From Dictyobacter formicarum (lineage in GTDB: Bacteria > Chloroflexota > Ktedonobacteria > Ktedonobacterales > Ktedonobacteraceae), in contig NZ_BNJJ01000015.1 of assembly GCF_016587435.1 (NCBI RefSeq), positions 171,112-235,111 on the forward strand: a stretch of 64,000 bases of DNA, given 5' to 3'. The position numbers and the translations under genes are program-made. Position 1 is the first letter of the stretch. Each line of letters begins with the position of its first letter. Below are positions 1-50,791 of this stretch, piece by piece. The notes beneath the pieces are model-generated. The model was given only the letters and a program-made list of their open reading frames with translations. It was not told where the DNA came from and searched no databases.

Positions 1-34
1 GCTCATATTCCTCCTTTCCTTCATTCGGTGGTTT

Positions 35-178
35 TCAGGTTTCCGACCAGGGAGGTTCCTGCCACATCACACTTACCACATGGACACGAATCAGGACTTC
101 TCCCATTCCTGGCCGAGATTGTGGCGCATCTTCGAACGTCAGGTGGTCATTCTGACCATCTAGGCAAATGACTTTCAT
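35..178 (-). pseudogene. N-terminal remnant of a quinone oxidoreductase / alcohol dehydrogenase-like protein
   Basis: Reading leftward from the ATG at 178, with an AAGGAGA-type ribosome site just upstream, gives a 47-residue peptide starting MKVICLDG and containing PGMGEVLIRVHVVSV. This is the classic N-terminal strand pattern of zinc-type or quinone oxidoreductases (MDR superfamily, GroES-like fold). It stops at 35-37, far short of the ~320 residues usual for the family, and the WQEPPW end no longer looks like the family. The start signals are intact but the body of the gene is gone. I infer an inactivated remnant. The window edge is close, but the stop lies inside the window, so the truncation is real in this frame. 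Confidence 0.5.
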
Positions 179-379
179 CGTTCACATGTCTCCTTGTTAT
201 TCCCCATTCTTCCAGAGCATTTCCACGCTGATCTCTCCAGCAGGACCTACGCATGACCCAACGAAATGCCGCAGACGCCGAGAAGTCTTGAGCTAAAGGG
301 GAGCTTCTGAACGGATACATACCTGCATATGGCTCCGAAGTGCTTTACCTGGCAAAATTATAGAATGATAATGGTCTTC

Positions 380-1135
380 CTAAAACTCCTTCCAGGTCAT
401 CAGACCTGTCGCGTGATTGGGGGTCAGAATGGAGTTGGAACTGAGCGCGCTGAACAGCGGGTCGGAGAACGGCTCCGCGCGCACGACTGCCGTCCGACCA
501 CGGCTCTGTAAATAGGCTTGCGTCATCTCCTCGATGGTGAGGACCTGCGGTCCGCCAAACTCCACCACGCGGTAGAGCGGCCCGAGTTCTGCGATGGCGA
601 CCAAGCGATCAGCCACTTCACCGCTATTGATGGACTGCATGTGCACACCAGCGGGAACCCTTACCTCTGTTTCGCTCCGGGCCAAGAGCGATTCGATAAT
701 GGATTGTGCGAAGCTATGGTACTGCGTGGCACGCAGGATGCTCCAAGGGAGGCCGGATTGCAACACGATCTGTTCCGCCTCATATTTCTTCTGGTAGTAG
801 AAGAAATCGCTCGCCTCGACGCCCACAATGGAGATGTAGATGAGATGCGGCGAACCGCTTTCTTTTGCTGAAGTCACCAGCGCCCGCGTGCCTTCGACAT
901 CTACCCCCTGCGTGTCTTTCAGACTGGTGGCACAATGGATAATCGCATCCACGCCAGCAACGGCCTCGTGTAAGCCTATGCGCGATGCCATGTCCCCATA
1001 GACGCGCAGTCCCTGCGACTGCGGGGAAGCTGGCCGCGAACTCATGATGCGCACGCGATGATGCCCCTGCAGCAAGCGTGTGACCACCTGGCTGCCAAGC
1101 CCTCCTGTTCCACCTGTGACCAAGACTGTTGACAT
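380..1135 (-). CDS. NAD(P)-binding SDR / NmrA-like family protein
   Basis: A 251-residue protein starting at the ATG at 1135, preceded by an AGAGGAG ribosome site. The open frame runs further upstream, but that part has no family resemblance. The N-terminus reads VLVTGGTGGLGSQVVTRLL, the TGxxGxxG dinucleotide-binding Rossmann motif of atypical (extended) SDR proteins, and IIHCATSLKD and YIS follow as in NmrA/NAD(P)H-binding proteins. Members act as cytosolic NAD(P)-dependent sugar/quinone reductases or as redox sensors. The YYQKKYEAE segment resembles the YxxxK region of active reductases. No operon partner is visible. The nearest neighbour is an IS1182-type remnant, so the physiological substrate cannot be inferred. 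Confidence 0.85.
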   Translation of the reverse strand: MSTVLVTGGTGGLGSQVVTRLLQGHHRVRIMSSRPASPQSQGLRVYGDMASRIGLHEAVAGVDAIIHCATSLKDTQGVDVEGTRALVTSAKESGSPHLIYISIVGVEASDFFYYQKKYEAEQIVLQSGLPWSILRATQYHSFAQSIIESLLARSETEVRVPAGVHMQSINSGEVADRLVAIAELGPLYRVVEFGGPQVLTIEEMTQAYLQSRGRTAVVRAEPFSDPLFSALSSNSILTPNHATGLMTWKEF

Positions 1136-1570
1136 ACTCCTCTGCTTCTTTCTTCGTAGTGATCCCTGTACGATGTCTTCTCGATGCTGCAACGTGGAAA
1201 GCCCTGCTCCACGGAAGAGCGAGGAAGAAGCCGATGCCGCAGAAAAGCCAGGTCGGGCTCCACAAGCCGCAAGCCTTCTGCCCGCCGCGTGGCATCTGGG
1301 AAAAGCCGGGTGATGCGCAAACCCCACACTCCCCTTTCGCGCTCCGGGAGGATTCGCTTCTGTGGATCGAACTTTCTTTCTTCCAGTCCCTGTAATAAGC
1401 TGAGTTTACCAGACCAACGCTCTGCCCTCTCAAAGCAACATGATATGCTTCTCGTCGTATCGCCAGCATATACGCGCATCTCTCTATTACACGACGCTGA
1501 AGATCTGCAAGATACTCAACCCGCAGCAAACCTCCCGCGCGGCTTTGTCGTTGCGTCTTGAAATTGACCG

Positions 1571-1588
1571 CAGCCTGTTGAAAAAGTC
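1571..1588 (+). repeat. IS1182/IS5-type terminal inverted repeat (left)
   Basis: CAGCCTGTTGAAAAAGTC, 76 bp upstream of the truncated transposase start, is the sort of end found on IS1182-like elements. No matching right end was found, in line with truncation of the transposase. The 1136-1570 stretch before it holds no convincing gene. Confidence 0.45.
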
Positions 1589-1663
1589 TTTGTTGGGCTT
1601 ATTGTTTGTAGAGCTTGACAAAAGACCACGGGTGAAGTGCACTGCAGGAGGAGGAAAACACAT

Positions 1664-2476
1664 ATGATGGGTTTCAAAGAACGCACATTTGCCCCCTGCG
1701 TCGCAGTATCCCTCGAGGAGCTAGTGTCCCAGGATCACTTCTATCGCCATTTGCAACAGATCCTGGATCTCTCCTTTGTGCCTGATCTGGTACGCAGGTC
1801 CTATGCTCCTGTCGGACGAGCGTCTCTCGATCCCGTTGTGTTTTTTAAACTCCAGTTGGTCATGTTTTTTGAGGGGATCCGTTCGGAGCGCTTACTGATG
1901 CGCCTGGTTGCGGACCGCCTCAGTGTGAGGTGGTACCTGGGCTATGATTTCCATGAGCCGTTGCCCGATCATTCGAGCTTAAGCCGTATCCGAACCCGTT
2001 ATGGCCTCGACATCTTTCGCCGCTTTTTTGATGCTATTCTTGAACAATGTCAACGCGCCAAATTGATCTGGGGAAAAGAACTCTACATCGACGCGACGAA
2101 AGTCGATGCCAATGCCTCCGTGGATTCTCTGACCACGCGGTTTGCCGTCGAGGCACGCCAAGCTTTCCAAAACCATCTGGAGGAGCTTTTTCAAGAAGAG
2201 GATGATCCACGCACATCCGTCCCTGCTCCTGTTCCTCTCGATGCTGATCAAGAGCCGCGACCACTCCATGATTCGGGATGGTGTCCTCTTATTACACTAC
2301 CATCCATGGTATCATGGGAGCTTATCGCTGGAACATTATTCAGCCATATTATCCCTGAGAAGCCTTTCACGACAGCTATTATTTTGATCTGTTTAGGCGC
2401 AGGTATAGTACTATGGACTTACTACTCCATCTTTCGCCTCTTTAGAAGAAGCCGCGGGGATAAGTATCGCGTATAA
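1664..2476 (+). pseudogene. Truncated IS1182-family transposase fused to a foreign membrane-like tail
   Basis: The start is the ATG at 1664, preceded by an AGGAGGAGG ribosome site. About 205 residues match the N-terminal half of IS1182 transposases: a DHFYRHL segment, FFKLQLVMFFEGIRSERLL, and LPDHSSLSRIRTRYG, then KELYIDATKVDANAS, which carries the first catalytic Asp. After roughly position 2280 the similarity stops. The frame continues for ~64 residues with one hydrophobic helix (AIILICLGAGIVLWTYY) that is not transposase. The second catalytic Asp and the Glu are missing, so transposition is not possible. The tail may be the end of an unrelated membrane protein gene joined by the deletion. 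It has no recognisable family. Confidence 0.7.
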
Positions 2477-2654
2477 TCGTCCGTTTTACTCGTGTGAATT
2501 ATCCTTATTAGGGTCCAGTGAAACCTTACAATGTGCCCGGTCGCTCCAGTAACAAAAACACGCATAGAAAAATGAATTGAACCCCTTGTGCCAGACCAAG
2601 TATCATCGGGGTGAGAAAACCACCGTGTGAAGAAGAGAGACCCGCGAGGAGAAA

Positions 2655-2828
2655 ATGATGACACCGACGAGAAGAACCTACACGCGTGAATTTAAATTGA
2701 TGATCGTGAGACAGGTAGCATAAGGAGAGAAACGAGCGGCGCGAGTTTATCGAGAATACGATCTGGCTCAGATCATTTTCGACCAAAGAGGCATCTTCTT
2801 ACAGCTTTGGGCTCTCGTGCCCTCATGA
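2655..2828 (+). pseudogene. IS3-family OrfA remnant with an in-frame stop
   Basis: The ATG at 2655 begins MMTPTRRTYTREFKLMIVRQ, the typical start of an IS3-group OrfA helix-turn-helix protein. A TAA at 2721-2723 interrupts it. The same frame then continues GEKRAARVYREYDLAQ, the second half of the OrfA helix-turn-helix, before losing similarity and stopping at 2826-2828. The downstream OrfB integrase is absent. This is a short decayed IS3 remnant. The following 2829-3235 stretch contains only short open frames with no family resemblance. Confidence 0.6.
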
Positions 2829-3235
2829 AGGCACGATTTCAGACGTGGCATGAGATTACCGCTGAGAAAACAGTGACATAACGAGCCTCTTCCCTTCGTT
2901 CTCATCTGCCATTGTTGCCTGATAAGCTTTTTCTCAGCACATCTTTCCTCCTCAAAGGATCACTGGGCAATATCCTTTGTTTTTTGAGGTTCGGACGCCC
3001 AATGCGCCCACGATCTGTACAGGCAAACGCACAATGTGGATCTTCACGACGATCTGAGTCCTGATTGATATGATGTTGAACAGGTGTATTGTCGCCAGGA
3101 ACGGACAATCGTATGCAAAGGTGCGTCTTCTAGATGTGAGGCTCATTAATAGATAAGAAAAACAATAGATAAACAATGCCCACAGGGAGCATGTCTATCG
3201 GTCCGGGATGGTATAGATCGATATCGACACGAACG

Positions 3236-3706
3236 CTATGGGGTAGATGGTTCTTCGAGCCGGCTGAGTACAGTCTCCGCAATTGTTCCGAGCGCTTCTA
3301 TCTGCTCCATGGTGAGAATATCTGTAACGTAGCGTCGCACAGCCTGATCATAGTAGACCTGAGCTTCTGCCAAAAGCTCTTGTCCAGCATCAGTTATACT
3401 GATGACCGATCCCCGGTTGTCCTCAACGCACTCTTCTCGTGTGATGAGCCCTCGCGCTTCCATACGCCGAAGCTGATGGGAGAGCCGGCTCTTTTCCCAT
3501 TCCAGTCCGCAACGCAGGGCAAACGCCCTCACGGACGCGCCCGGTGCGTCCGTGAGGGCAGACAATACCTCAAAGTCTGCTTCTGACAGCCCGACCCTGG
3601 CAAGTTCTCGGCCGATGCGCTCGGTCAGTCGCGCACGCATACGCTGATAACTGATCCAAGCCGCTGTTTTTTGATCGAGAGGTACTTGTTTCATCATGCT
3701 GCCCAT
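3236..3706 (-). CDS. MarR-family transcriptional regulator
   Basis: A 156-residue protein with the MarR layout: an N-terminal dimerisation helix, a winged helix-turn-helix (LSEADFEVLSALTDAPGASV, then a recognition region around SRLSHQLRRMEARGLITR), the wing EDNRGSVISITDAG, and a C-terminal dimer helix. Family members are dimeric repressors that release palindromic operators on binding small phenolic or xenobiotic ligands. It is divergent from the fused flavoenzyme at 3827, and the 120-bp gap between them carries three operator-like inverted repeats. It therefore very probably represses itself and the flavoenzyme genes. An in-frame ATG three codons in is an alternative start. Confidence 0.9.
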   Translation of the reverse strand: MGSMMKQVPLDQKTAAWISYQRMRARLTERIGRELARVGLSEADFEVLSALTDAPGASVRAFALRCGLEWEKSRLSHQLRRMEARGLITREECVEDNRGSVISITDAGQELLAEAQVYYDQAVRRYVTDILTMEQIEALGTIAETVLSRLEEPSTP

Positions 3707-3721
3707 TATATCTCTCTATTG

Positions 3722-3801
3722 GTTGGCACGTCAACAATGTCAGGATATCGCTGTTGACATATCAACAATTTTGGGATATCATTGGTTGACATATCAACCA
3801 A
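3722..3801. promoter_or_regulatory. Three phased MarR-type operator palindromes
   Basis: Three copies of an interrupted palindrome, GTTGA-N4-TCAAC, lie in the divergent intergenic region: 3722-3735 (arm variant GTTGG/TCAAC), 3753-3766 and 3782-3801. The last has 8-bp perfect arms, TTGGTTGA and TCAACCAA. Their centres are 31 and 32 bp apart, three helical turns, so bound dimers would sit on one face of the DNA. The rightmost copy lies immediately upstream of the 3827 start. Confidence 0.7.
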
Positions 3802-3826
3802 CGATATCGAAAGAGAGCGTCTACCT

Positions 3827-6094
3827 ATGAATTATGGTCATCTGCTAAAGTTTGGTACCTCCATTACTCCAGTACACGATACGCCAGAGATGGCTGTCTC
3901 TCTCGCAAAGCGCAGCGAGGAGCTTGGCTATGATCTGGTGGCATTTCAGGATCACCCTGATCAGCCAGAACTTCTCGATACCTGGACGCTTCTGTCGTGG
4001 GTTGCGGCCCAGACGAAGCGCATCCATATTGCCGCCACTGCACTCAATGTACCGATGCGACCACCAGCGGTCCTGGCACACGCCGCAGCCAGCCTTGACC
4101 TGCTCTCGGCTGGTCGGTTGGATCTTGCGCTCGGTGCCGGGCAATCCTGGAATGAGATCGAAGCGATGGGGGGCCTCCGGCTGACACAGAGCGAGGCTGC
4201 TGATGTCCTCAACGAAGCGATGGAAGTCGTGCGCGGCCTCCTGGCCGGATCAACCAGAATGCCACTGCGCTTCCGCGGCAATTATTATCAACTCGCTGGT
4301 GCGCAGAGAGGGCCTGTGTCAGCACATGACATTCCGATCTGGTTGGAAGGCACTCAGCTGTCGGTGCTCCGCCTGGTCGGGCAGCAGGCCGATGGCTGGC
4401 TAACCTCGATCGGATCCATGAAAGCTGGTGAATTCCAGGCTGCTCATAAGATTATTGACGAGGCCGCGATCAAGGCCGGACGAGACCCACGTGAACTGCG
4501 ACGGCTTGTGAACATCTCAGGGGAATTCTTATCTGCTCATGAGGGCTTTCTGCGTGGGCCGAGTAAACAATGGGTCGATGACCTCCTCCCGCTCGTTGTC
4601 GAAGATGGCGTCGGGACGTTTATTCTAACGTCGGATGATGCTGAGACGATCGAGCAGTTCGCACGTGAGGTCATTCCAGTCTTGCGCGAGGCGGTGGAAC
4701 ATATGCGTCCAGACGCTTCAGGCCCCGTGTTACGTCGTGCGTCGGTGCGTGCTAAGCGACATGCGGGCGTAGATTATGATCATGTCCCTGCCTCACTGGT
4801 CGATGCCGTGATAGAACCAGGAGATACTGGTTACGCACGTGTGAAGTCAACCTTTCTGCGTGGTGGATCTCCAGGTATCGTTTTTCAGGTGAAGGATACA
4901 AGCCAGATCATCGATGCCATCGCCTTCGCGCGCGCGCATGCCAATTTGCCGCTCTCAGTACGTAGCGGTGGGCACGGCATCAGTGGCCGGTCGACCAATC
5001 ATGGTGGTATCGTCATCGATCTATCCCAAATGAATACGATTGAGATCCTTGATAAGGCAACGCGTCGCGTTCGCATCGGACCGGGCGCACGCTGGATGGA
5101 TGTTGCGACCGCGTTAGCTCCACATGGGTGGGCGCTTAGCTCAGGCGATTACGGCGGTGTCGGTGTCGGTGGTCTTGCAACTGCAGCCGGTGTCGGCTGG
5201 TTTGCACGCGAACACGGTCTGACTATCGATCATATACGCGCCGTCGATATGGTGCTCGCGGATGGTTCGGTAGTGCATGCAGACGCAAAAGAAAATACTG
5301 ATCTGTTCTGGGCGGTTCGTGGCGCCGGAGCAAACTTTGGCATCGTCACATCGTTTGAGTTTGAAGTTGACGAGACGGGTCCTGTTGGCTGGGCGCAACT
5401 TGTCCTCGATGCGAGCGATACGGCTCATTTCATTGAAAAGTGGGGCGCAACCATCGAGGCGTCACCGCGTGATATCACCAGCGCCCTCATCATCGGTCCA
5501 GCGCGCGGAGGACAACCGGTAGTGGCGCAGGTAACGGCGGTTATTGATTCGGATAAACCGGACACCATCATCAATCGGCTGCAGCCAATTGCTAATATTG
5601 CTCCGTTGTATGATCAACAGGTCGTTATCACGTCTTATGCCGACCTCATAGCAAATGCACAGGGCAATGAACACAACGGGCAGGGCGAGCCGGTCTCACG
5701 CTCCGGGCTTGTTGACCACATTACTCCTGCGTTCGCAGCGGCGGCAACACGGCTGATCCGTAGCGGCGAGGTCCACCTTTTCCACATTCGCTCTGTGGGA
5801 GGAGCCGTATCAGACGTTGACCCTGATGCAACAGCTTATGGTAACCGCTCCGCCAGTTTCTCAGTGGTAGCTTTTGGAGCAAGACGCGCACGCCTGGATG
5901 CGTTGTGGGACGAGATGGCGGTCCATTTTAAGGGACTCTATCTGAACTTTGAGACTGACTTGCGTCCAGAACGTCTGAACGATGCGTTTCCGCCCCGTAC
6001 TATCGAACGCCTGCGAACGCTGAAGGCCCACTATGATCCTGAGAATGTCTTTCGAGATAATTTCAATATCGCTCCGCAGACGCTCATCGTCTGA
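3827..6094 (+). CDS. Fusion of a luciferase-like monooxygenase and a BBE-like FAD oxidoreductase
   Basis: A 755-residue protein; the ATG at 3827 was chosen because homology begins there. Residues ~1-300 are a luciferase-like (LLM class) flavin monooxygenase: the FQDHPDQPELLDTWTLLSW and LGAGQSWNEIEAMGG blocks, a TIM barrel using FMN or F420. Residues ~330-755 are a berberine-bridge-enzyme-type oxidase with a PCMH FAD-binding domain. His383 in VRSGGHGISGRSTN is the residue that covalently binds FAD in this family. The second, Cys-type attachment site appears replaced by Gly in GGVGVGGLATAAGVGWFA, so attachment would be single. The C-terminus AHYDPENVFRDNFNI is the BBE signature. Fusion of the two flavoenzyme types in one chain is unusual. 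MarR control and the neighbouring monooxygenase suggest oxidative turnover of a small organic compound. Confidence 0.9.
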   Translation: MNYGHLLKFGTSITPVHDTPEMAVSLAKRSEELGYDLVAFQDHPDQPELLDTWTLLSWVAAQTKRIHIAATALNVPMRPPAVLAHAAASLDLLSAGRLDLALGAGQSWNEIEAMGGLRLTQSEAADVLNEAMEVVRGLLAGSTRMPLRFRGNYYQLAGAQRGPVSAHDIPIWLEGTQLSVLRLVGQQADGWLTSIGSMKAGEFQAAHKIIDEAAIKAGRDPRELRRLVNISGEFLSAHEGFLRGPSKQWVDDLLPLVVEDGVGTFILTSDDAETIEQFAREVIPVLREAVEHMRPDASGPVLRRASVRAKRHAGVDYDHVPASLVDAVIEPGDTGYARVKSTFLRGGSPGIVFQVKDTSQIIDAIAFARAHANLPLSVRSGGHGISGRSTNHGGIVIDLSQMNTIEILDKATRRVRIGPGARWMDVATALAPHGWALSSGDYGGVGVGGLATAAGVGWFAREHGLTIDHIRAVDMVLADGSVVHADAKENTDLFWAVRGAGANFGIVTSFEFEVDETGPVGWAQLVLDASDTAHFIEKWGATIEASPRDITSALIIGPARGGQPVVAQVTAVIDSDKPDTIINRLQPIANIAPLYDQQVVITSYADLIANAQGNEHNGQGEPVSRSGLVDHITPAFAAAATRLIRSGEVHLFHIRSVGGAVSDVDPDATAYGNRSASFSVVAFGARRARLDALWDEMAVHFKGLYLNFETDLRPERLNDAFPPRTIERLRTLKAHYDPENVFRDNFNIAPQTLIV

Positions 6095-30066: not shown

Positions 30067-31680
30067 CTATGATAGTTGAGCATCTCCCGAAACGGGCATG
30101 CTTATACCTGTATGCTCTTCCAGTGCGGCCAGCAGCGCTAAGATGATATCCTCTCTCCAGGGACGAGCCACTACCTGCACGCCTACCGGCAGACCGGCGC
30201 TGCCCATCTCAACGGTACGAGCTGTCCGCTCAACGCTATCTTTCCCAACACTCCGCTCGCTCTCTTCACCTGGGCGCACGCGGGTCATGGGCGCCACGCC
30301 TGCGGGCAGACCAAGCAAATTGTAAAGGATGGCATAGCTGCCGGCATTGGTCGGATTTAAGGTGCCACTGTTGCCATGGGTCAGGGCTGGAAGTGCGTGC
30401 GGCGGGCAGAGCAGAGCATCAAAACGTTCGGCATCAAGGGCGGCCAGGAAACGCTGACGATACTGATTGCGCTCTTCTACCAGATGCCAGTACTGATCGA
30501 CCGATAACGCGCCACGAATGTGCTGCAACGAAGACGCCAGGTGAGCCTGTCCACTTCGCCTGAGCAGACCTATCAGTGGCGCACGAACGATCCCAGGCAG
30601 ACTGCTTACCCGCATATTGAAGCTGATGCGGCGATCACGGGGATCTCCTGCGAGATTGCGCTTATAGGTTGCAAAACCATCCGCGCCCACCAGGCCAACA
30701 TAGAGCCGGACCGCTTCTGCCACATCGGGCGGGTTCCAGGACTCAACGATCGCACCACGCGCACGCAAGGCCTGCGCCGCCTCCTCCACCGCACGACGGA
30801 CAGCCGGAGCCACGGAAAAAATGCCATTCTCGGTATACATACCGATACGCAGGCCAGTAAGAGAGACGGCGGTGGGGTCGGGCCAGGGAACAGGTGGCAC
30901 CAATGGATCAAGCGCGTTCAAGCCAGGAGCCGCCAGAATGCTCATCGCCAGACGCAGATCCTCAACACTACGAGCAATGGGAGCTGGCTGAGCGATAATG
31001 CCTTCCTGCCCACCAACGTAGGCATGGGGGGCGGTATCGTGATGGGTCAATCTTCTGGCAGTGGGAAGCAAGCTATAGAGACCGCAGAAATGTGCAGGCA
31101 CGCGAATACTGCCGCCGAAATCGCCTCCCAGGCCGAGAGGAGAGCCACCAGCGGCAATAATAGCGGCCTCGCCTCCACTGCTTCCGCCAGGAGTACGCAT
31201 CAGATCCCAGGGATTATTTGTGCGACCATAGACCGGGTTATCAGATTCGTGGTACATCAGCAGTTGTGAGACATTGGTCTTCCCCAGTGGAATAGCCCCT
31301 GCCTGGCGAAGTCGCTGCACCAGGGGACCTTCCTGCTCCATAGGCTGAGATTTCTGATGCAGAATACCAACCGTGGTTGGGGTTCCAGAGACCATAAATT
31401 GCTCTTTGAGCGTGATGGGCACGCCATGGAGTGGACCAAGAAGCGTTCCTTGCTCACGCAGACGATCAGCGCGGCTGGCCTCAGCGCGCGCTTGCTCAAA
31501 AAGCGATACCACAACTGCGTTCAGACGGGGATTGACCGCTTCAATCCGGCGAATATGCGCCTCAACGACCTCCTGCGAGGAAATGAGACCATCAGCAATG
31601 CGGCGAGCTAGCTCTGATGCACTCAGGCTAGTGAGAGCTGCATCTTCATGGGAAGGCAGCGCAGAGGGAGAGAAATTCAT
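30067..31680 (-). CDS. Amidase (amidase-signature family)
   Basis: A 537-residue hydrolase. The Ser-cisSer-Lys triad is visible: Lys92 in GVPITLKEQF, the cis-Ser in MRTPGGSSGGEAA (about residue 167), and the nucleophile Ser191 in GGDFGGSIRVPAHFCGLYSL. These enzymes cleave amide bonds of nitrile-derived amides, acyl-amino compounds or peptides. The long insertion between residues ~280 and 430 is variable in the family and sets specificity. There are no GatB/GatC neighbours, so it is not the tRNA amidotransferase subunit. It heads a compact minus-strand group with the PPOX protein and membrane protein. Confidence 0.92.
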   Translation of the reverse strand: MNFSPSALPSHEDAALTSLSASELARRIADGLISSQEVVEAHIRRIEAVNPRLNAVVVSLFEQARAEASRADRLREQGTLLGPLHGVPITLKEQFMVSGTPTTVGILHQKSQPMEQEGPLVQRLRQAGAIPLGKTNVSQLLMYHESDNPVYGRTNNPWDLMRTPGGSSGGEAAIIAAGGSPLGLGGDFGGSIRVPAHFCGLYSLLPTARRLTHHDTAPHAYVGGQEGIIAQPAPIARSVEDLRLAMSILAAPGLNALDPLVPPVPWPDPTAVSLTGLRIGMYTENGIFSVAPAVRRAVEEAAQALRARGAIVESWNPPDVAEAVRLYVGLVGADGFATYKRNLAGDPRDRRISFNMRVSSLPGIVRAPLIGLLRRSGQAHLASSLQHIRGALSVDQYWHLVEERNQYRQRFLAALDAERFDALLCPPHALPALTHGNSGTLNPTNAGSYAILYNLLGLPAGVAPMTRVRPGEESERSVGKDSVERTARTVEMGSAGLPVGVQVVARPWREDIILALLAALEEHTGISMPVSGDAQLS

Positions 31681-33782: not shown

Positions 33783-35903
33783 CTAAGAGTGAGATTGGTG
33801 GCGCGATGTTGTATCATATCGGCGAGAAGCAGCAGCTTCCGCGCGAAGTCGCGCTAAGAGACCAGGATCGTTACGGATCAAGTAGACACGATAGCCAGGG
33901 AGACGCTCAATATCCGGCACTTGCAGCTTGCCCTGATAAATCTGCTGGTAGAGCCATTTCTGGCCAACGCCGAGTTCTCGGGTCAAGCCAGGAATGGTCC
34001 AGAACCCATCGATCATGGAAACCTTCCGATGCCGATGCAGGGAACTGACCTGGCCATGGTTCTTCCGCAGCTTGTGGATCGTGCCAGGTGTGACAGCTAA
34101 TCGGCGAGCCGTGTGAAAGCCCTCGGCGGTGAGTTGTGCAGCAATCTCTGGATCAGTCAGTCCCTGCCTGGTCAGTTCATCCAGACGAGCTACCAGTCCC
34201 TCGTAGTTGCTCGCATCCGTTTGCCGGTGAATCGGGGGGATCACCTGCACGACCGAAAAGTGCCCGCTGATCCAGACAATTTTGATTTCGATGCGATCGG
34301 AGGCCAGCCGGGTGGCAATCACGCGACTGATGAGCGAGCGCAACAAGCGCTTTTTGTGCTCATTGCTGATTTTCCCGCTGGCCCACAACGCTGGTAGCGC
34401 AGGCCCAATATGCTCCAGTTGCTGACGTTGCTCTGGCGTCAGGAGAGGAAAGGCAGTGCGATACGCGACTCGCTCGGCCTCTTCCTCCGCCTGGTGCAGG
34501 GCCACCAGTTTTTCTTCCCAGGTGTGCTCCAGTGAGGCCGCCACCAGCCGGTTGTCAGGGTCAACCGCCTCATAGCGTCGTCGAGCCAGGTGCGCCTCAT
34601 ACGTGGCGCGCGTCACCTGGTCGCGGTGATACTGCTGGAGCTGTTGCTCTGTTTTCACTTGTTGGGCCAGCAAGGCTTGAAGGGCATCCAATTGCGCCGG
34701 GCGCAGCGCATCAAAGAATGCCTGCACCACCACGTCCTCAATTGAGGGACCATCCAGAGACATGCAGGTGACACCTGCATAATGGCGTTTCAAGCCATCA
34801 CAGAGATAGCGGACATGGGCTTTGTAAGCGACGCGCATGCGATGTCCACACATGCCACAGCACATCAGTCCTTGCAGCAAAGCCTCGCCTTCGCGCGGGG
34901 CTCCGTGCGCTCCTCGCATGGCTGCTTGTTTAGCATGAGCCTCCTGGGCATTTTCGGCGAGCCGTGCCTGGTTGCGCAGGTATTGCTCCCAGCTAATGTA
35001 GGCAGGATAGACGCCGTGTTGAATCGTCACCCATTCCTCCATGGGCTTGCGTACGACTCCTGAGCCACGATGGCCGGGTCGGCGGAGCAGTGGATTCGTC
35101 GGACGGCGCCCGTAGACAAAGGCTCCCGCATACGCTGGATTATGCAGGATCTCAATCAGCATCGATTCGGTGGGCTCCTTCCAGAGGAGTTCTCCTTTGC
35201 GCAGTCCACTCGTCTGGTGCCGCGGGAGCAGGATGTGATGGGTTTTGAGGTAGTGGAGCGTCTTCATGGCACTGCCCAGTTCGGCAAAGGTGGAGAAGAG
35301 CAGCGCGATGCAGCTCCGGATTTGCTCATCCGGATCGAACTCGGCCTGACCCTGTTCGGTCCGCACCAGACCGGTGGGCAGGTGTTGTACATAGTCGCCG
35401 CGCTCAACTTTGCTGAGCCGGCCTGCATTCAGGCGTTGACGCATCATATGCAGCTCCGCTTCGGACATGGTCCCCTTTAACCCGAGCAGCAGACGATCAT
35501 TGTAACTACGAGGATCATACACCCCTTCGATATCAGCAATCAAGGTCCCCACCACAGCAGCCAGATCCAGGAGCTGGTACCAGTCAGCATTGTTGCGCGC
35601 CAGACGCGAGACTTCCCAGCCAAAGATGATGCCCACATGACCCAGCGCGACCTCGGCAGCCAACTCGGTAAAGTCATCACGACCTTCGGTCGTCGTGGCC
35701 GTGTGGCCCAGATCGGCGTCGAGCACCACAATGCGGGAAGAGTTCCATCCCAGACTTTGGGCACGCTCCACCAGTGCTCGTTGATTGTGCTGGCTCTCGG
35801 TGTTCATCCGTACTTGCTTGGGAGTGGATTGCCGAATGTAGACCACTGCCTTGCGTTCAAGATGGGTGGACGTAATTTTCAGCGAGCGGGGAATGGGCAT
35901 CAT
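33783..35903 (-). CDS. Large serine recombinase (element copy 1)
   Basis: A 706-residue protein with GAGGAGG 6 nt before the ATG. The resolvase catalytic domain begins KAVVYIRQSTPKQV, with the nucleophilic Ser in YIRQS. It continues VLDADLGHTATT, GIIFGWEVSRLARNNADWYQ and the Arg-rich MSEAELHMMRQRL. The recombinase domain and a zinc ribbon (CCGMCGHRMRV ... CDGLKRHYAGVTCMS) follow, then a coiled coil and a C-terminal MerR-like helix-turn-helix (RELGVGQKWLYQQIYQG). The domain set is that of large serine integrases and TnpX-like transposases, which join DNA at a 2-bp core. Its start overlaps the ORF1 stop (ATGA), so translation is coupled. Confidence 0.93.
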   Translation of the reverse strand: MMPIPRSLKITSTHLERKAVVYIRQSTPKQVRMNTESQHNQRALVERAQSLGWNSSRIVVLDADLGHTATTTEGRDDFTELAAEVALGHVGIIFGWEVSRLARNNADWYQLLDLAAVVGTLIADIEGVYDPRSYNDRLLLGLKGTMSEAELHMMRQRLNAGRLSKVERGDYVQHLPTGLVRTEQGQAEFDPDEQIRSCIALLFSTFAELGSAMKTLHYLKTHHILLPRHQTSGLRKGELLWKEPTESMLIEILHNPAYAGAFVYGRRPTNPLLRRPGHRGSGVVRKPMEEWVTIQHGVYPAYISWEQYLRNQARLAENAQEAHAKQAAMRGAHGAPREGEALLQGLMCCGMCGHRMRVAYKAHVRYLCDGLKRHYAGVTCMSLDGPSIEDVVVQAFFDALRPAQLDALQALLAQQVKTEQQLQQYHRDQVTRATYEAHLARRRYEAVDPDNRLVAASLEHTWEEKLVALHQAEEEAERVAYRTAFPLLTPEQRQQLEHIGPALPALWASGKISNEHKKRLLRSLISRVIATRLASDRIEIKIVWISGHFSVVQVIPPIHRQTDASNYEGLVARLDELTRQGLTDPEIAAQLTAEGFHTARRLAVTPGTIHKLRKNHGQVSSLHRHRKVSMIDGFWTIPGLTRELGVGQKWLYQQIYQGKLQVPDIERLPGYRVYLIRNDPGLLARLRAEAAASRRYDTTSRHQSHS

Positions 35904-41210: not shown

Positions 41211-41685
41211 TCGAACCCAACAAGAAACCCCACTTTTAGACAGGGTATGTGGTGAGGTTACGATAACTGATCCCACTCATGCCCTCTATGGTCAAACCTT
41301 CCCGCAGCTTCCTGTACGGATCAATCGCCGCACGCCCCATGTGATGGTGCTGCTGCCAAGCGGGCGGCGGCACATGGTTCCACGCGCTGCCACGAACCTT
41401 GAACGCCCAGCAGAGACTGTCTCGCCTCCTTCTCCCTTGCCTTCCATCTCGGTCCGGACTATTCTTCCTCTAGCACGCCTGGTGCAACAACTCAAGCAGG
41501 CCAAGGAGGAAAGCCATGCCGAGCAAACAATGTCAACCATTCATCCAACAGCGTCCTGTGTCCGCAGATCCCACGACGATCTTCCAACGGCTTCCCCAGA
41601 GCCACCAGCAGCAACTCGCCCATCTGATCGCCGACCTCATTCGACGCCTGCGCACAGCCGCACAAGAGAGGGAGGGCGACCATGA
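41146..41685 (+). CDS. Element ORF1, DUF5372/Y4bD-like small protein (copy 2)
   Basis: The conserved core starts around 41260: VTITDPTHALYGQTFPQLP, RTPHVMVLLPSGRRHMVPRA, and SVRTILPLARLVQQLKQA. The matching protein of copy 1 begins at its own ATG inside the element. Here the only in-frame ATG is 41146, 65 bp outside the element in the IS flank, so the native start is uncertain. The frame runs on through ORF2 to a stop 4 nt past the recombinase ATG. Function unknown; see the copy 1 entry for family likeness. Confidence 0.5.
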   Translation: MDRCVSRPLPSPFPRPLPGSENRTQQETPLLDRVCGEVTITDPTHALYGQTFPQLPVRINRRTPHVMVLLPSGRRHMVPRAATNLERPAETVSPPSPLPSISVRTILPLARLVQQLKQAKEESHAEQTMSTIHPTASCVRRSHDDLPTASPEPPAATRPSDRRPHSTPAHSRTREGGRP

Positions 41686-41692
41686 ACGCTGA
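41516..41692 (+). CDS. Element ORF2, small protein (copy 2)
   Basis: A 58-residue protein with AAGGAGG upstream: MPSKQCQPFIQQRPVSADPT, IFQRLPQSHQQQLAHLIADL and IRRLRTAAQEREGDHER. Its stop overlaps the recombinase start by 11 nt, indicating translational coupling. It is wholly inside ORF1 in another frame. Positional equivalent of the 72-residue ORF2 of copy 1. Function unknown. Confidence 0.6.
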   Translation: MPSKQCQPFIQQRPVSADPTTIFQRLPQSHQQQLAHLIADLIRRLRTAAQEREGDHER

Positions 41693-43796
41693 GTCGTTGG
41701 CTCTCATGCCGACTACCGAACAGCGGGCGAAGATGGCCTATGTCTACATTCGCCAATCCTCCCTCATGCAAGTCACGCGCCACGCCGAGAGCACCGAACT
41801 GCAGTACTCGTTGGTGGAGCGAGCTGTCAAATTGGGATGGCCTCGTGAACGGGTGGAAGTGATTGATGAGGATCTGGGCAAATCAGGGGCCAATGTCTTT
41901 TCCCGTGGCGGTTTCCAGTATCTGCTCGCTGAGATTAGTCTGGCTCGTGCAGGCTTAGTGCTCAGCTTCGATGCCTCCCGCCTGGCGCGCAACAATCGCG
42001 ATTGGTATCAATTGCTGGAAGTCTGCTCCATCTTCGGCACACTGATCGCCGACGGTGAACGACTCTACGATCCACGGCTCTACCACGACCGATTACTGTT
42101 GGGATTAACGGGCATGATGAGCGAGGCTGAACTCCACCAGCTCAAACAGCGTATGCTGGCGGGAGCCCGACACAAAGCCGAACGGGGAGAACTGCACCAG
42201 GGATTGCCTGTGGGGTTGATTCGCGGGCCTGCTGGAGTTGTGACCTTGAATCCCGACGAAGAGGTGCAGGCGCGCATCCGGCTGGTCTTTGAGAAATTCC
42301 GTGAAATCCGCTCGGCCAGCGGCGTGATGCGGTGTCTGAGAGCGGCGCACTTGCCTCTGCCAGCCTGCCCCAGAGTCGGCCCTGCTCCCTATGAGGTGGT
42401 CTGGCAACCCGCCCGCACCTCTGCCATTCTCGATATCCTCCACAACCCGGCCTATGCTGGGGCCTATGTCTATGGACGCAAGCAGTTTGACCCGGCACGC
42501 CGCACCGCAGGGCATCCATCTGGAGGGCGGATTCTCCAACCCATTGACAAATGGGAGATTTGTTTACACAATAGATATCCAGCGTATATTTCGTGGGACG
42601 AATTTGTAGCGAATCAGGCACAATTACGCGCCAATAGCATGAAGTATCGAGAGGAGCAACCCGGCATGGCACGCACAGGCCAAGCGTTATTGCAAGGTAT
42701 CGTGCGCTGTGGGCGCTGTGGGGCCTTATTCCACCTCCACTACTCTGGGAAGCAGGGTGAATATCCCGAGTATCGGTGTAGCGCCGACCAGAGCCAGTTT
42801 GGAGGAACAGACTGCCAACGGGTGCGCGCGCTGGCTCTGGATACCCAGGTTGAACAGCGGTTTCTGGAGGCGCTGCAGCCCGATCAACTGGCGCTCGCGC
42901 TCGCGGCCTTGGCGCAATTGGAACAGGAGGAGCAAGTCGAAAGCAAGCAATGGGAGCTGCGCCTGGAGCGTGCGCGCTACCAGGCCAAGCGGGCCGAACG
43001 ACAATACCAGGCGGTAGAGCCAGAAAACCGCTTGGTGGCTCGCTCGCTGGAGAGGCAGTGGGAAGAGCAACTCCGGGGAGTGGAAACCGTAGAGAAAGAG
43101 TATCATGCCTGGAAATCCAGTCGCGGTGGGACCTTTACCCAGGCAGACCGAGAAGCCATTGTAGCCCTGGGCAGCGATTTACCAGCGCTCTGGCACGCCC
43201 CGACGACGACGAGTGCTGAGCGCAAGCAGATGTTGCGCCTGGTGATCCGGGAGGTCATCGTCGATAGCAGGCGCATTGGAGGCCAGGTCTGGGCGCAAAT
43301 CAACTGGCAAACAGGGGCAAGCGAGCAGTTCTGGTACCAACGCCGGATAAGCAGTTATGTCCTCTTCGCCGGTGCCCAAGTGCTTGAGCAACGCGTGCGT
43401 GAGCTCAACGCAGCAGGGCTAATGGATGCGCAGATTGCTGCGATATTGGAGGCTGAGGGATATCAGACCCCTGGGCTTGTTCACCCGATTACGAGCAAGA
43501 TCGTCTGCCACTTACGTCATCAGTGGCAGATCCCCACGGTCAAGCTCAACAAAAATCAGCACAACCTGGCTCAATGGGAAGATGGCTCTTACTCGGTCGA
43601 AGGTGCTGCAGCAAAGCTGGATGTGGGCCAGGACACGATTTTCAATTGGCTGAAAACAGGCAGACTCAAAGGCGAACACCTGGCCAGAAGCATGCCCTGG
43701 AAAATTTACATGACGGAAGATGATGAAAGACGACTTCACGAATGGCTGCGATGTCAAGGCCGACGTACCAGACGATCAAAAAGGGAGGCATTATGA
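41682..43796 (+). CDS. Large serine recombinase (element copy 2)
   Basis: A 704-residue protein: the catalytic N-domain KMAYVYIRQSSLMQVTRHAE (nucleophile in YIRQSS), VIDEDLGKSGANVFSRGGFQ, VLSFDASRLARNNRDWYQLL, MSEAELHQLKQRML; the recombinase domain (LHNPAYAGAYVYGRKQFD); a zinc ribbon (CGRCGALFHLHYSG, C-terminal Cys in GGTDC); a coiled coil; and a C-terminal helix-turn-helix (AAAKLDVGQDTIFNWLKTGR). Same architecture and length as the 33783-35903 protein but clearly diverged. The gene ends 13 bp from the element boundary. Confidence 0.93.
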   Translation: MNAESLALMPTTEQRAKMAYVYIRQSSLMQVTRHAESTELQYSLVERAVKLGWPRERVEVIDEDLGKSGANVFSRGGFQYLLAEISLARAGLVLSFDASRLARNNRDWYQLLEVCSIFGTLIADGERLYDPRLYHDRLLLGLTGMMSEAELHQLKQRMLAGARHKAERGELHQGLPVGLIRGPAGVVTLNPDEEVQARIRLVFEKFREIRSASGVMRCLRAAHLPLPACPRVGPAPYEVVWQPARTSAILDILHNPAYAGAYVYGRKQFDPARRTAGHPSGGRILQPIDKWEICLHNRYPAYISWDEFVANQAQLRANSMKYREEQPGMARTGQALLQGIVRCGRCGALFHLHYSGKQGEYPEYRCSADQSQFGGTDCQRVRALALDTQVEQRFLEALQPDQLALALAALAQLEQEEQVESKQWELRLERARYQAKRAERQYQAVEPENRLVARSLERQWEEQLRGVETVEKEYHAWKSSRGGTFTQADREAIVALGSDLPALWHAPTTTSAERKQMLRLVIREVIVDSRRIGGQVWAQINWQTGASEQFWYQRRISSYVLFAGAQVLEQRVRELNAAGLMDAQIAAILEAEGYQTPGLVHPITSKIVCHLRHQWQIPTVKLNKNQHNLAQWEDGSYSVEGAAAKLDVGQDTIFNWLKTGRLKGEHLARSMPWKIYMTEDDERRLHEWLRCQGRRTRRSKREAL

Positions 43797-48096: not shown

Positions 48097-48417
48097 CTAC
48101 TCACCATTTTCTATGGCGGTGTTATGCGAGATGCGCAGTAGCAGGCCAACTTCATTATCGTTGGCCAGGATTGAGCTGGCTCCATTGCTCAAGAAAGGCA
48201 AGGGAATACCCGTTAGCGGCATAAGTTTGAGGTTGCCTCCTGCCATGATCACCAGCCCCGCCAGGATAGTCGTAAGGCCCGCAGCGAGCAGTTGGTTAAA
48301 GACACCCGAGGCTTGCATAGCAACACGATAGCCACGATAGACGATCAAGAGGTAGACACCAATAAGCACGAAGAGCCCTATCAGGCCCATGGTTCTGTCA
48401 GAATTCGAAGGAGGCAT
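48097..48417 (-). pseudogene. FtsW/RodA/SpoVE (SEDS) C-terminal fragment
   Basis: About 100 residues match the last helices of SEDS glycosyltransferases: LIGLFVLIGVYLLIVYRGYR, FNQLLAAGLTTILAGLVIMA and GGNLKLMPLTGIPLPFLSNG, then ASSILAN ... VGLLLRISHN. The conserved NLKLxPxTGIxLPFxSxG loop is recognisable. The first ~250 residues (most of the catalytic transmembrane core) are missing, and the region after SILAN is altered. A non-functional remnant of a cell-wall gene. Confidence 0.75.
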
Positions 48418-48468: not shown

Positions 48469-48640
48469 TGTACCATTTTCAGGCATCATACGACGAGGTG
48501 TCGCCCGTTATAACCAGACGGGCGATCCCTGGGCCGAATTTCAGCAACTGTCGGAATTCCAGGATATTCGGGAGGATGCCGATTTCCGCCTGACCTGCAG
48601 AAGTGCCCGCACCAGCGACACGTCACACGTCTCCAACGTG

Positions 48641-48674
48641 CCCGCAGCAGGAATGCTCATGCTCCTGCTGCGGG
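48641..48674 (-). terminator. 12-bp perfect stem-loop at the 3' end of the telomere-resolvase-like gene
   Basis: CCCGCAGCAGGA (48641-48652) and TCCTGCTGCGGG (48663-48674) with a 10-nt loop that contains the stop codon. There is no T-run, so it may be a 3'-end stabiliser rather than a classical terminator. Confidence 0.45.
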
Positions 48675-50507
48675 CGATGCCGACCCCCAGGGGAAGGCCA
48701 TTGGCTCCTCGGCAATCGTGATCATCTGGCCAATCGGTTCGGCCTTGCGATTATACGACGGTTTGATGTCCAGTTTCCGATGATGCTCCTCGATCTCGTC
48801 GCGGTGCGCATCCAGGTACGCATTGATCGCCTCTTTGCGGCCACCGACGAGCTTCTGAATGGAGAGCGTGGTAATGTACCACTGCTCTAACGGACGGTGG
48901 GCCTCATTCCACTGCATCAGGGTATACACCGCCCGCCGATACCGCTCCGTGCCCGCCTCTGGGACCTTCATGCCCGCCAGTTTCGAGGTTGGCATGGCGG
49001 CATAGCGTTCACTATCATGGCGCCGCGTCTGGCTGCGCACATTGCGCGCCTCCCGCTCACCGGCGGCCAGCAAATACGCGAGCAGATCCGCGGCCCCGGT
49101 GAGCGCCATCCCTTCCTGTAAGAGCCTCTGCGTCTCCGCTGGCAGGTCCAGCTGCTCCAGGGAGAGGGTTCCAGCCTGCCGCACCCCACTCCCCACAACA
49201 CTCCTCACCACACGCCCCTGCGCCGGTCCTGCGTGATGGTCCTGCTGTTCATAGACGGCAAAGACCCGGCGCAACAACTCATCATCCTTGATCTCATGGC
49301 CCAGTTGGCGGCGCATTCCTTCGCGCAGATCGTCGCCCCAGGCGCGCGTCTGAATCGTCGGCCTGAACACGGAATAGCCCGTCTTATTCTCCGTGGCCGC
49401 TTTCTGGCGTCCCTTCGTGGGGGCCACCACCGGCGGCTCCGCATGCATCTTCTCCCGCCATGCCTCGTACTCGCTGCGGAACACATCGAGCACCGTCACG
49501 CCCGGCTGCCCTAACTGCACCCCTTGCCGGCCATCAATATTGCCATCGGTATCGGCGATCTTATAATCCGCATAGTTGGCATGGCTGGCATAGTGGTGCC
49601 GGATCTGCTCCACCTCCTCCGCCGAGGTGCCCGCTTCGACGCGTGGCTCCAGCACAAAGCGATGGCCCTGGATCTGCGCCATGTAGGTGATGTCGGCGAC
49701 GGGGGGCGGTGCATACCAGAAGGTGGCAATGCGCGCATACATGCCGCGAAAGTTGTGCACACTCACCTTCTCCCGCGTCGCTCGCACCAACTCCTCCAGA
49801 TCGCCGTAGGACCGCGCTGCTGCCTCGTTGACCGCCTTGCCATACTTCTGGCTCACCTGCTCGATCTCCAGGCCCGTGCAATCCACCAGGGCACGCAGCC
49901 GCTGGACAGCTTCAACCACGAGAAATGCGCGCACCAGCGTGGGAATCTCAGAGCGCCCCGGCTCGCGGCCACGCCCTTTGACCTGCCCCTCAAACCAGAC
50001 CGTATAAGGTTCCTTGACCGTGAAGGTTCCCGTCTTCATGATCTCGGCCAGACGTCTGCCCGTACACACCGCAATGCCCACCACCAGATCCGCCCACGTC
50101 TCTGAAAACAACAACGACATGGCTCGCTCCACCAGGCCGTCCGGGTCCTTGAGAAACACCTGCTGGCTGAGTCGTTCCTGCGTCACGCCCTGATTGCGCG
50201 CATTCATCTGCACCCATTCCCCCTCCGACAGGTTGAACACCTTCAGCCCGATATGTTCCCGTTCCCCGGTACGCGGATTCTCCCAGCTATTCTGCTCCGT
50301 CACCGGGAGTGCTTTGATCAAGGACCGCACCTGCGTGATCGGTTTGCGTAACGAATCCCCAGCCAGTCCCCGCTGCGTCTTCCACCACTGTAATTCGTGC
50401 TCCCACAGCGTGCGCAGCTCAGCCTCCTGAGCCGTGGTCGCGGTCCACAGCACGGGCTCTAACGCCTGAAGCCAGCGATCGCGTACCCATCCTAATATCT
50501 GTGCCAT
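48657..50507 (-). CDS. Telomere resolvase (protelomerase)-like tyrosine recombinase
   Basis: A 616-residue protein; ATG 50507 is chosen for the CGGAGGG site 5 nt upstream. Protelomerases are tyrosine recombinases that cut a palindrome and seal covalently closed hairpin ends on linear replicons. Visible hallmarks, numbered from this start: GIAVCTGRRLAEIMKTGTF (catalytic Arg near 151), a strand turn VWFEGQVKGRG (Lys177, 25-26 residues later, as in TelK-type enzymes), then SEIPTLV, VHNFRGMYARIATFWYAPP (second Arg at 254), YMAQIQGH (His282) and a Tyr cluster HHYASHANYADYKI (306-315) for the nucleophile. The length matches phage-plasmid protelomerases (~630). A long C-terminal part may bind DNA. 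A consensus promoter and a 44-bp perfect palindrome lie just upstream. A divergent tyrosine integrase is the alternative. Confidence 0.75.
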   Translation of the reverse strand: MAQILGWVRDRWLQALEPVLWTATTAQEAELRTLWEHELQWWKTQRGLAGDSLRKPITQVRSLIKALPVTEQNSWENPRTGEREHIGLKVFNLSEGEWVQMNARNQGVTQERLSQQVFLKDPDGLVERAMSLLFSETWADLVVGIAVCTGRRLAEIMKTGTFTVKEPYTVWFEGQVKGRGREPGRSEIPTLVRAFLVVEAVQRLRALVDCTGLEIEQVSQKYGKAVNEAAARSYGDLEELVRATREKVSVHNFRGMYARIATFWYAPPPVADITYMAQIQGHRFVLEPRVEAGTSAEEVEQIRHHYASHANYADYKIADTDGNIDGRQGVQLGQPGVTVLDVFRSEYEAWREKMHAEPPVVAPTKGRQKAATENKTGYSVFRPTIQTRAWGDDLREGMRRQLGHEIKDDELLRRVFAVYEQQDHHAGPAQGRVVRSVVGSGVRQAGTLSLEQLDLPAETQRLLQEGMALTGAADLLAYLLAAGEREARNVRSQTRRHDSERYAAMPTSKLAGMKVPEAGTERYRRAVYTLMQWNEAHRPLEQWYITTLSIQKLVGGRKEAINAYLDAHRDEIEEHHRKLDIKPSYNRKAEPIGQMITIAEEPMAFPWGSASPAAGA

Positions 50508-50613
50508 CTCGGCCCTCCGTTGTGTGATGCGTACGTTTGCCTTCACCTGCGCCTGTGGCAAGCCCCGACCAGCCTGGCCCACCACAAGCACAACTCCACG
50601 TCTGTCTTGTCAG

Positions 50614-50747: not shown

Positions 50748-50791
50748 TTCCCAGCCAGCCATGGGTGAGCTCACCCATGGCTGGCTGGGAA
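50748..50791. repeat. Perfect 44-bp palindrome, candidate telomere-resolution site
   Basis: TTCCCAGCCAGCCATGGGTG... is perfectly self-complementary about the centre between 50769 and 50770 (GAGCTC), with no spacer. Symmetry stops cleanly at both ends. It lies 240 bp upstream of the telomere-resolvase-like start and ~106 bp beyond its promoter. Hairpin-telomere targets (telRL, rTel) are uninterrupted palindromes of about 40-56 bp beside or near the resolvase gene. Confidence 0.75.

Follow-up and report, generated by a model that had tools for sequence, protein, structure and literature searches.

A gene in the 64-kb stretch of DNA analyzed here (hereafter the window, part of the 235,111-bp contig NZ_BNJJ01000015.1 of RefSeq assembly GCF_016587435.1) encodes, as judged from its sequence, a member of the telomere resolvase family. 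Enzymes of this family are known for closing the termini of linear DNA as hairpins, and chromosomes with such ends have been established for Borrelia and Agrobacterium. The best explanation of the window gene, and one that we consider probable, is that it specifies a hairpin telomere resolvase that likely cuts a palindromic junction and would thereby keep its replicon linear, because the protein belongs to the family, its active site is in register with those of characterized enzymes, a 44-bp palindrome lies upstream of the gene, and relatives carry resolvase genes in terminal repeats and have wraparound inverted repeats centered on a shared motif. The relatives in question are Ktedonobacteria, filamentous Chloroflexota with a Streptomyces-like form and genome size; in Streptomyces the linear ends are capped by protein.

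Identity of the Window Protein

The gene occupies a minus-strand open reading frame (ORF; 48657-50591) of 644 codons, counted from a GTG start. The 616-residue form that begins at the ATG at 50507, which is also the span given by an earlier first-pass annotation of this DNA, is the likely product because most homology, as well as the database copy, begins there; one distant homologue among the 103 aligned with MAFFT extends to 50534, and the GTG start is thus possible. PF16684, the ResT-TelK catalytic domain, was the sole Pfam match up to an E-value of 10 (108.3 bits against a cut-off of 27; E = 4.3e-31), and the resemblance is therefore not due to chance. In comparisons with the PDB, the single sequence matched TelK (6.2e-7) and TelA (8.5e-4), while a 12-sequence profile matched TelA (1.2e-18), TelK (1.7e-14), and ResT (2.4e-6), and the fold ranking placed the protein nearer to these three enzymes than to Xer, Cre, or integrases. 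Although the tyrosine-recombinase catalytic fold is common to the window protein, integrases, and Xer, the profile, the fold ranking, and the active-site comparison all disfavor a conventional tyrosine integrase or Xer recombinase, and we regard that identity as vanishingly improbable. A firm placing among conventional integrases had been named by the first-pass annotation as the result that would overturn its proposal of a telomere resolvase; the best profile and fold matches lie elsewhere, and the proposal is borne out by profile, fold comparison, and active-site register alike.

The TelA residues Arg255, Lys286, Tyr363, Arg366, His394, and Tyr405 (PMC3558466) correspond to R152, K177, H251, R254, H282, and Y312 of the window protein. 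The Arg-Lys-Arg-His-Tyr series is thus in register, the first four residues with TelA and Y312, the predicted nucleophile, with the phage protelomerases, in which this tyrosine is invariant (alignment of 11 sequences). Across the 103 homologues, R152 is conserved in 97 (6 gaps), K177 in 101 (2 gaps), R254 and H282 in all, and Y312 in 102, so the loss of the catalytic tyrosine or histidine that would have spoken against a resolvase is not seen. The ordered catalytic blocks recognized earlier are present as described, and the assignments of Lys177, Arg254, and His282 stand. Two corrections concern the first arginine, which is R152 rather than Arg151 because the R255A mutant of TelA (4f41) reads TGRA where the wild type has TGRR, and the tyrosine, for which a cluster at 306-315 had been proposed and which now narrows to Y312. 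By analogy with TelA, for which the chemistry is established, the enzyme would make a tyrosine-linked cut followed by hairpin ligation.

The window protein is nevertheless distinct from the known resolvases. Its identity to Agrobacterium TelA (PDB 4dwp, 4e0z, 4f41) is ~20%, it has a histidine in place of Tyr363, 30 rather than 11 residues separate the catalytic histidine and tyrosine, and ~290 extra residues follow the catalytic part. With three aligned phage-type proteins of the TelK/TelN kind, found in N15-like phages, identity is again ~20%, the C-terminal part differs, and no phage genes were seen around the window gene. The closest named sequences outside the Ktedonobacteria are cyanobacterial protelomerase-family proteins (Leptolyngbya, Acaryochloris, and Chondrocystis), the best of which match at 31-39% identity over 43-58% of the query, have the C-terminal segment in common with it, and are plasmid-borne where the record is a plasmid. 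The C-terminal ~290 residues (48657-49530), kept in Ktedonobacteria and partly in the cyanobacterial homologues, have no Pfam family and a weak PHROG match (phrog_34828, E = 0.025). Within the Ktedonobacteria, the protein shows 87% identity to one from Dictyobacter formicarum, with which it groups at 100/99 support; together with an amidase (30067-31680) that is 91% identical to a protein of Ktedonobacter sp. SOSP1-85 (G004) and 90% to one of K. robiniae, this agrees with the Ktedonobacteria-like setting suggested earlier.

Probable Hairpin Telomeres in Related Genomes

In Borrelia assemblies, hairpin telomeres have been recognized by inverted repeats that wrap around and carry a consensus at a set distance (PMC10353223), and reads continuing into the other strand have been used likewise for linear plasmids of Rhizobiaceae (PMC13293297). 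Among the relatives, a wraparound with a box at a fixed distance from its center was found in two genomes only, G031 and G037. Bases 1-5598 of G031 form a perfect palindrome (center 2799/2800), and G037 has two wraparound palindromes (~99.6-99.7%), one spanning 13.6 kb at the beginning of the record and the other, of 11.9 kb, near 3.476 Mb. These three were the only self-palindromes of at least 150 bp among 73 stretches tested, a few of which overlap or are not contig ends; none occurred in the 25 of these stretches that come from 15 resolvase-less genomes (8 of the 25 being whole draft contigs shorter than 6 kb). Over a series of boxes (ACTTGT at -50, then ACCG, and TCACGT at -19 from the center), the tips of G031 and G037 can be aligned gap-free; a single base is missing from one arm of the inner G037 copy, and the right end of G031 breaks off within the same box series. 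Because the boxes are shared in the same register at the tips of two genomes, hairpin telomeres very likely exist in Ktedonobacteria, as far as assemblies can tell, and the class likely maintains megabase-size chromosomes as linear molecules closed by hairpins.

A pattern constructed from the boxes of the two tips recurs exactly in 3 of 47 Ktedonobacteria genomes (G031, G037, and D. arantiisoli), all of them resolvase-bearing, and with one mismatch in one resolvase-less genome. On D. arantiisoli contig C109 (L021 1132-1181), the same telomere half-site has its tip joined to unrelated DNA, like a telomere fusion scar. The 3' end of the adjacent resolvase gene lies 333 bp from the tip in both G031 and D. 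arantiisoli and 401 bp from it in G037; at the right end of G031 the distance would be 332 bp.

It might be argued that these giant terminal palindromes are library or assembly artefacts, such as those left by missed adapters, and that the replicons are circular. The second wraparound of G037, which lies inside its single 11.34-Mb contig (L115 around 10995), would fit such an origin; we take it instead to suggest that the G037 record joins two linear replicons in assembly. Artefactual centers should be random, yet those of two genomes fall on the same boxes at the same distance, and the half-site of a third lies exactly as far from its gene as in G031. Genome G029, moreover, has four identical inverted ends without any wraparound, and the resolvase-less relatives yielded no such palindrome. 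An artefactual origin is accordingly the least probable of the explanations weighed here apart from the integrase identity.

The resolvase genes cluster at contig ends, frequently within terminal inverted repeats. PF16684 genes occur in 9 of the 47 genomes, and a search with P0001 returned the same nine; G038 has none. Of 36 matches above the cut-off, 27 lie on contigs of known length of at least 1 Mb. A contig end lies within 50 kb in 22 of these 27 cases, where uniform placement would give 0.53; four others are at the internal wraparound of G037, and one is elsewhere. The count sets aside nine matches on contigs of shorter or unknown length and three below the cut-off, and gene copies that share an inverted repeat or a wraparound are not independent of one another. 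Comparison of both ends in 17 contigs of resolvase-bearing genomes revealed inverted end repeats of at least 400 bp in 6 (Table 1); none of seven contigs of resolvase-less genomes has them, the inverted matches on G030 C1 being 252 and 69 bp. In SOSP1-85 a gene of the window type sits inside the inverted end repeat. The start stretches of the two G029 contigs are identical (100%) over 14,518 bp, all four ends are identical over the compared end stretches (7.3 and 8.3 kb), and a resolvase gene lies ~8 kb from the tip at every end. Contig C2 of SOSP1-85 has a direct end repeat of 1,755 bp (1.76 kb) with ends that do not fully match, which hints at a circular replicon; it was not used as a control.

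Published assemblies of the class include both topologies: two linear contigs in D. aurantiacus S27 (6.13 and 2.75 Mb), a putative linear chromosome in Ts. hazakensis COM3, and two circular contigs in Uno3 (5.30 and 2.40 Mb) (PMC6497799). The words "telomere" and "resolvase" have no occurrences in the main text of that paper, and no report of hairpin telomeres in Ktedonobacteria or Chloroflexi was among the matches listed in open-licence PMC papers.

Table 1. Features of the window (strand, positions) and inverted end repeats of related contigs
Feature	Position or contig	Strand	Remarks
Telomere resolvase gene	48657..50507	-	616 aa; alternative upstream in-frame GTG at 50591 gives 644 aa
PF16684 ResT-TelK catalytic domain match	49659..50147	-	residues 149-311 of the 644-aa form
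R152 codon	50052..50054	-	equivalent of TelA Arg255
K177 codon	49977..49979	-	equivalent of TelA Lys286
R254 codon	49746..49748	-	equivalent of TelA Arg366
H282 codon	49662..49664	-	equivalent of TelA His394
Y312 codon	49572..49574	-	predicted nucleophile; aligned with invariant Tyr of phage protelomerases
Perfect loopless 44-bp palindrome	50748..50791	.	candidate target site (telRL-like junction)
Inverted end repeat	SOSP1-85 C1		8.5 kb, 99.1%
Inverted end repeat	K. robiniae C3		5.1 kb, 99.8%
Inverted end repeats	G029 C1 and C2		
Inverted end repeat	G031		2.15 kb, 84.9%
Inverted end repeat	G037		2.4 kb, 100%

A Candidate Target Site Upstream of the Gene

The 44-bp palindrome lies 240 bp upstream of the ATG and 156 bp upstream of the GTG and is the sole perfect loopless palindrome with arms of at least 10 bases in the window. 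Comparison stretches totaling 952 kb contain four places with perfect loopless palindromes whose arms reach at least 18 bases; at one of the four, the palindrome lies 348 bp upstream of a resolvase gene of K. robiniae, itself intact. Such a palindrome is thus present in 2 of 14 resolvase upstream regions (13 read over 600 bp and one over 191 bp) versus three places elsewhere, under a criterion set after the window palindrome had been seen. As a yardstick, all three telomere phage or phage-plasmid records carry a loopless palindrome of 58-92 bp with 0-3 mismatched pairs, 124-163 bp upstream of the protelomerase gene; no palindrome was found near the one Leptolyngbya plasmid gene examined. These comparisons support, without proving, a role of the 44-bp palindrome as target, and on sequence grounds it is a plausible substrate of the window enzyme.

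The placement of the palindrome would also suit a resolvase from a prophage or a linear phage-plasmid of the N15 type, in which case the palindrome would be its telRL, given the arrangement in the three yardstick records. However, Pfam searches of 40 ORFs of the window, which covers 64 kb of the 235-kb contig, found no phage structural, plasmid replication, or partition family; a search of IMG/VR contigs found no close relative of the resolvase; and annotated phage and plasmid records held no match of at least 60% identity. The phage origin therefore seems improbable, and the prophage that the first-pass annotation had entertained finds no backing in these searches. A scan of IMG/VR also gave no match to the palindrome core or the telomere pattern. 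The PHROGs search covered the resolvase only.

Is the Window Replicon Linear?

In the model that we favor, the resolvase would cut a palindromic junction in replicated DNA and reseal each side as a closed hairpin, and this sealing would keep the replicon of the Ktedonobacter-like host linear. The replicons of the relatives would be linear with covalently closed ends and that of the window likewise, and the 44-bp palindrome would be the enzyme's own target, present as an intact junction; such a junction may represent an unresolved, circular or fused form, or the assembler may have put two telomeres together. Linearity of the replicon that carries the window is plausible. The linear hairpin-ended replicon put forward earlier thus gains support in the related genomes, where the replicons concerned are apparently the chromosomes and megaplasmids themselves, and does not gain it for the window contig.

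Several observations weigh against extending the model to the window. The contig continues through the palindrome, whereas an active enzyme should leave its own site resolved. The window contains no giant palindrome and no telomere boxes, its one 3-mismatch match being at chance level. Nor is the half-site of the palindrome conserved across the class: single 2-mismatch matches occur in 4 of the 47 genomes, three of which lack a resolvase, and its matches across the 47 are at chance level. None of the four other full-length window-clade genes with readable upstream DNA has such a palindrome. In a midpoint-rooted resolvase tree of 26 rows, the window clade (99/97) comprises the window gene and those of D. 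formicarum, Ktedonospora formicarum, SOSP1-85, SOSP1-52, D. arantiisoli (C109a), and Ts. hazakensis, whereas the genes next to the tips in G031, G037, and D. arantiisoli fall into a separate clade (100/99), with enzymes ~37% identical to the window protein. Ktedonospora formicarum and Ts. hazakensis have their window-type gene well inside a contig. Among the relatives, 10 of the 17 contigs of resolvase-bearing genomes have neither inverted nor direct end repeats, and draft assemblies tend to break at repeats, so that gene position at contig ends is, by itself, weak evidence.

A different explanation is that the window gene was left as an internal copy by transposition or by the fusion of telomeres; although intact in appearance, this paralogue would reside in a transposon-rich region and have no telomere function in the cell. 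The uninterrupted contig agrees with this explanation, as do the neighboring transposases, large serine recombinases, group II intron protein, and FtsW fragment, the decayed resolvase pieces that are common in relatives, and the fused half-site of D. arantiisoli C109. Yet the frame is full length, all catalytic residues are kept, and the gene clusters tightly with other intact genes. We consider an internal copy unlikely, although less so than a phage origin, and retain the active resolvase as the preferred explanation.

A wider model, held tentatively and at slightly less than even chances, is that Ktedonobacteria have linear multi-megabase chromosomes and megaplasmids with hairpin caps, some with several resolvase-telomere pairs in terminal repeats, and that the window carries a group-A resolvase with its own 44-bp junction. 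Such a system would differ from that of Borrelia in its boxes (ACTTGT/ACCG/TCACGT versus TAGTATA), in replicons of ~2-9 Mb, in the location of resolvase genes within terminal repeats, and in the several paralogues of some genomes. If correct, hairpin-ended chromosomes occur in another phylum, on replicons of up to ~9 Mb, and lineages that look like Streptomyces have solved the end problem by a different chemistry. The finding also provides telomere sequences and a range of diverged enzymes, together with a practical rule by which Ktedonobacteria assemblies can be completed.

Further Palindromes and Neighboring Genes

Other palindromes lie near resolvase genes of relatives. K. robiniae C3 (L017 1101-1152) has a 52-bp palindrome whose 26-bp core recurs in K. 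racemifer C7 (L077 5805-5830), <4 kb from a resolvase gene at a contig end, and, with three mismatches, near the opposite end of the same K. robiniae contig (G006:C3:5629-5648). An origin as an insertion-sequence end was dropped because a search of K. robiniae and K. racemifer located the half-site (up to three mismatches) nowhere but at the two palindromes near resolvase genes; the palindrome is possibly a second telomere type. On D. arantiisoli C86 (L029 2909-2982), two overlapping long palindromes lie ~220-300 bp upstream of another intact resolvase gene. No telomere-like block is common to the 3' flanks of five group-A genes. The guanine-cytosine (GC) skew of G031, from 23 sampled stretches, fits an inner origin near 5.6 Mb, agrees with linear and circular forms alike, and has an anomalous block at ~0.9-1.8 Mb. 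A dnaA search in five genomes gave two above-cut-off copies in each and was not used.

Within the window, the 40 ORFs include several transposases along with oxidoreductases, histidine kinases, and WD40 proteins; a group II intron protein and two large serine recombinases are also among them. The serine recombinases (~705 aa each; 33783-35903 and 41682-43796) are on opposite strands and flank the 36-41.7 kb interval. Just downstream of the resolvase gene lies a 106-aa fragment of an FtsW/RodA-type gene (48097-48417), and a perfect inverted repeat of 13 bp around a 10-base loop (48640-48675), possibly a terminator, spans the resolvase stop codon.
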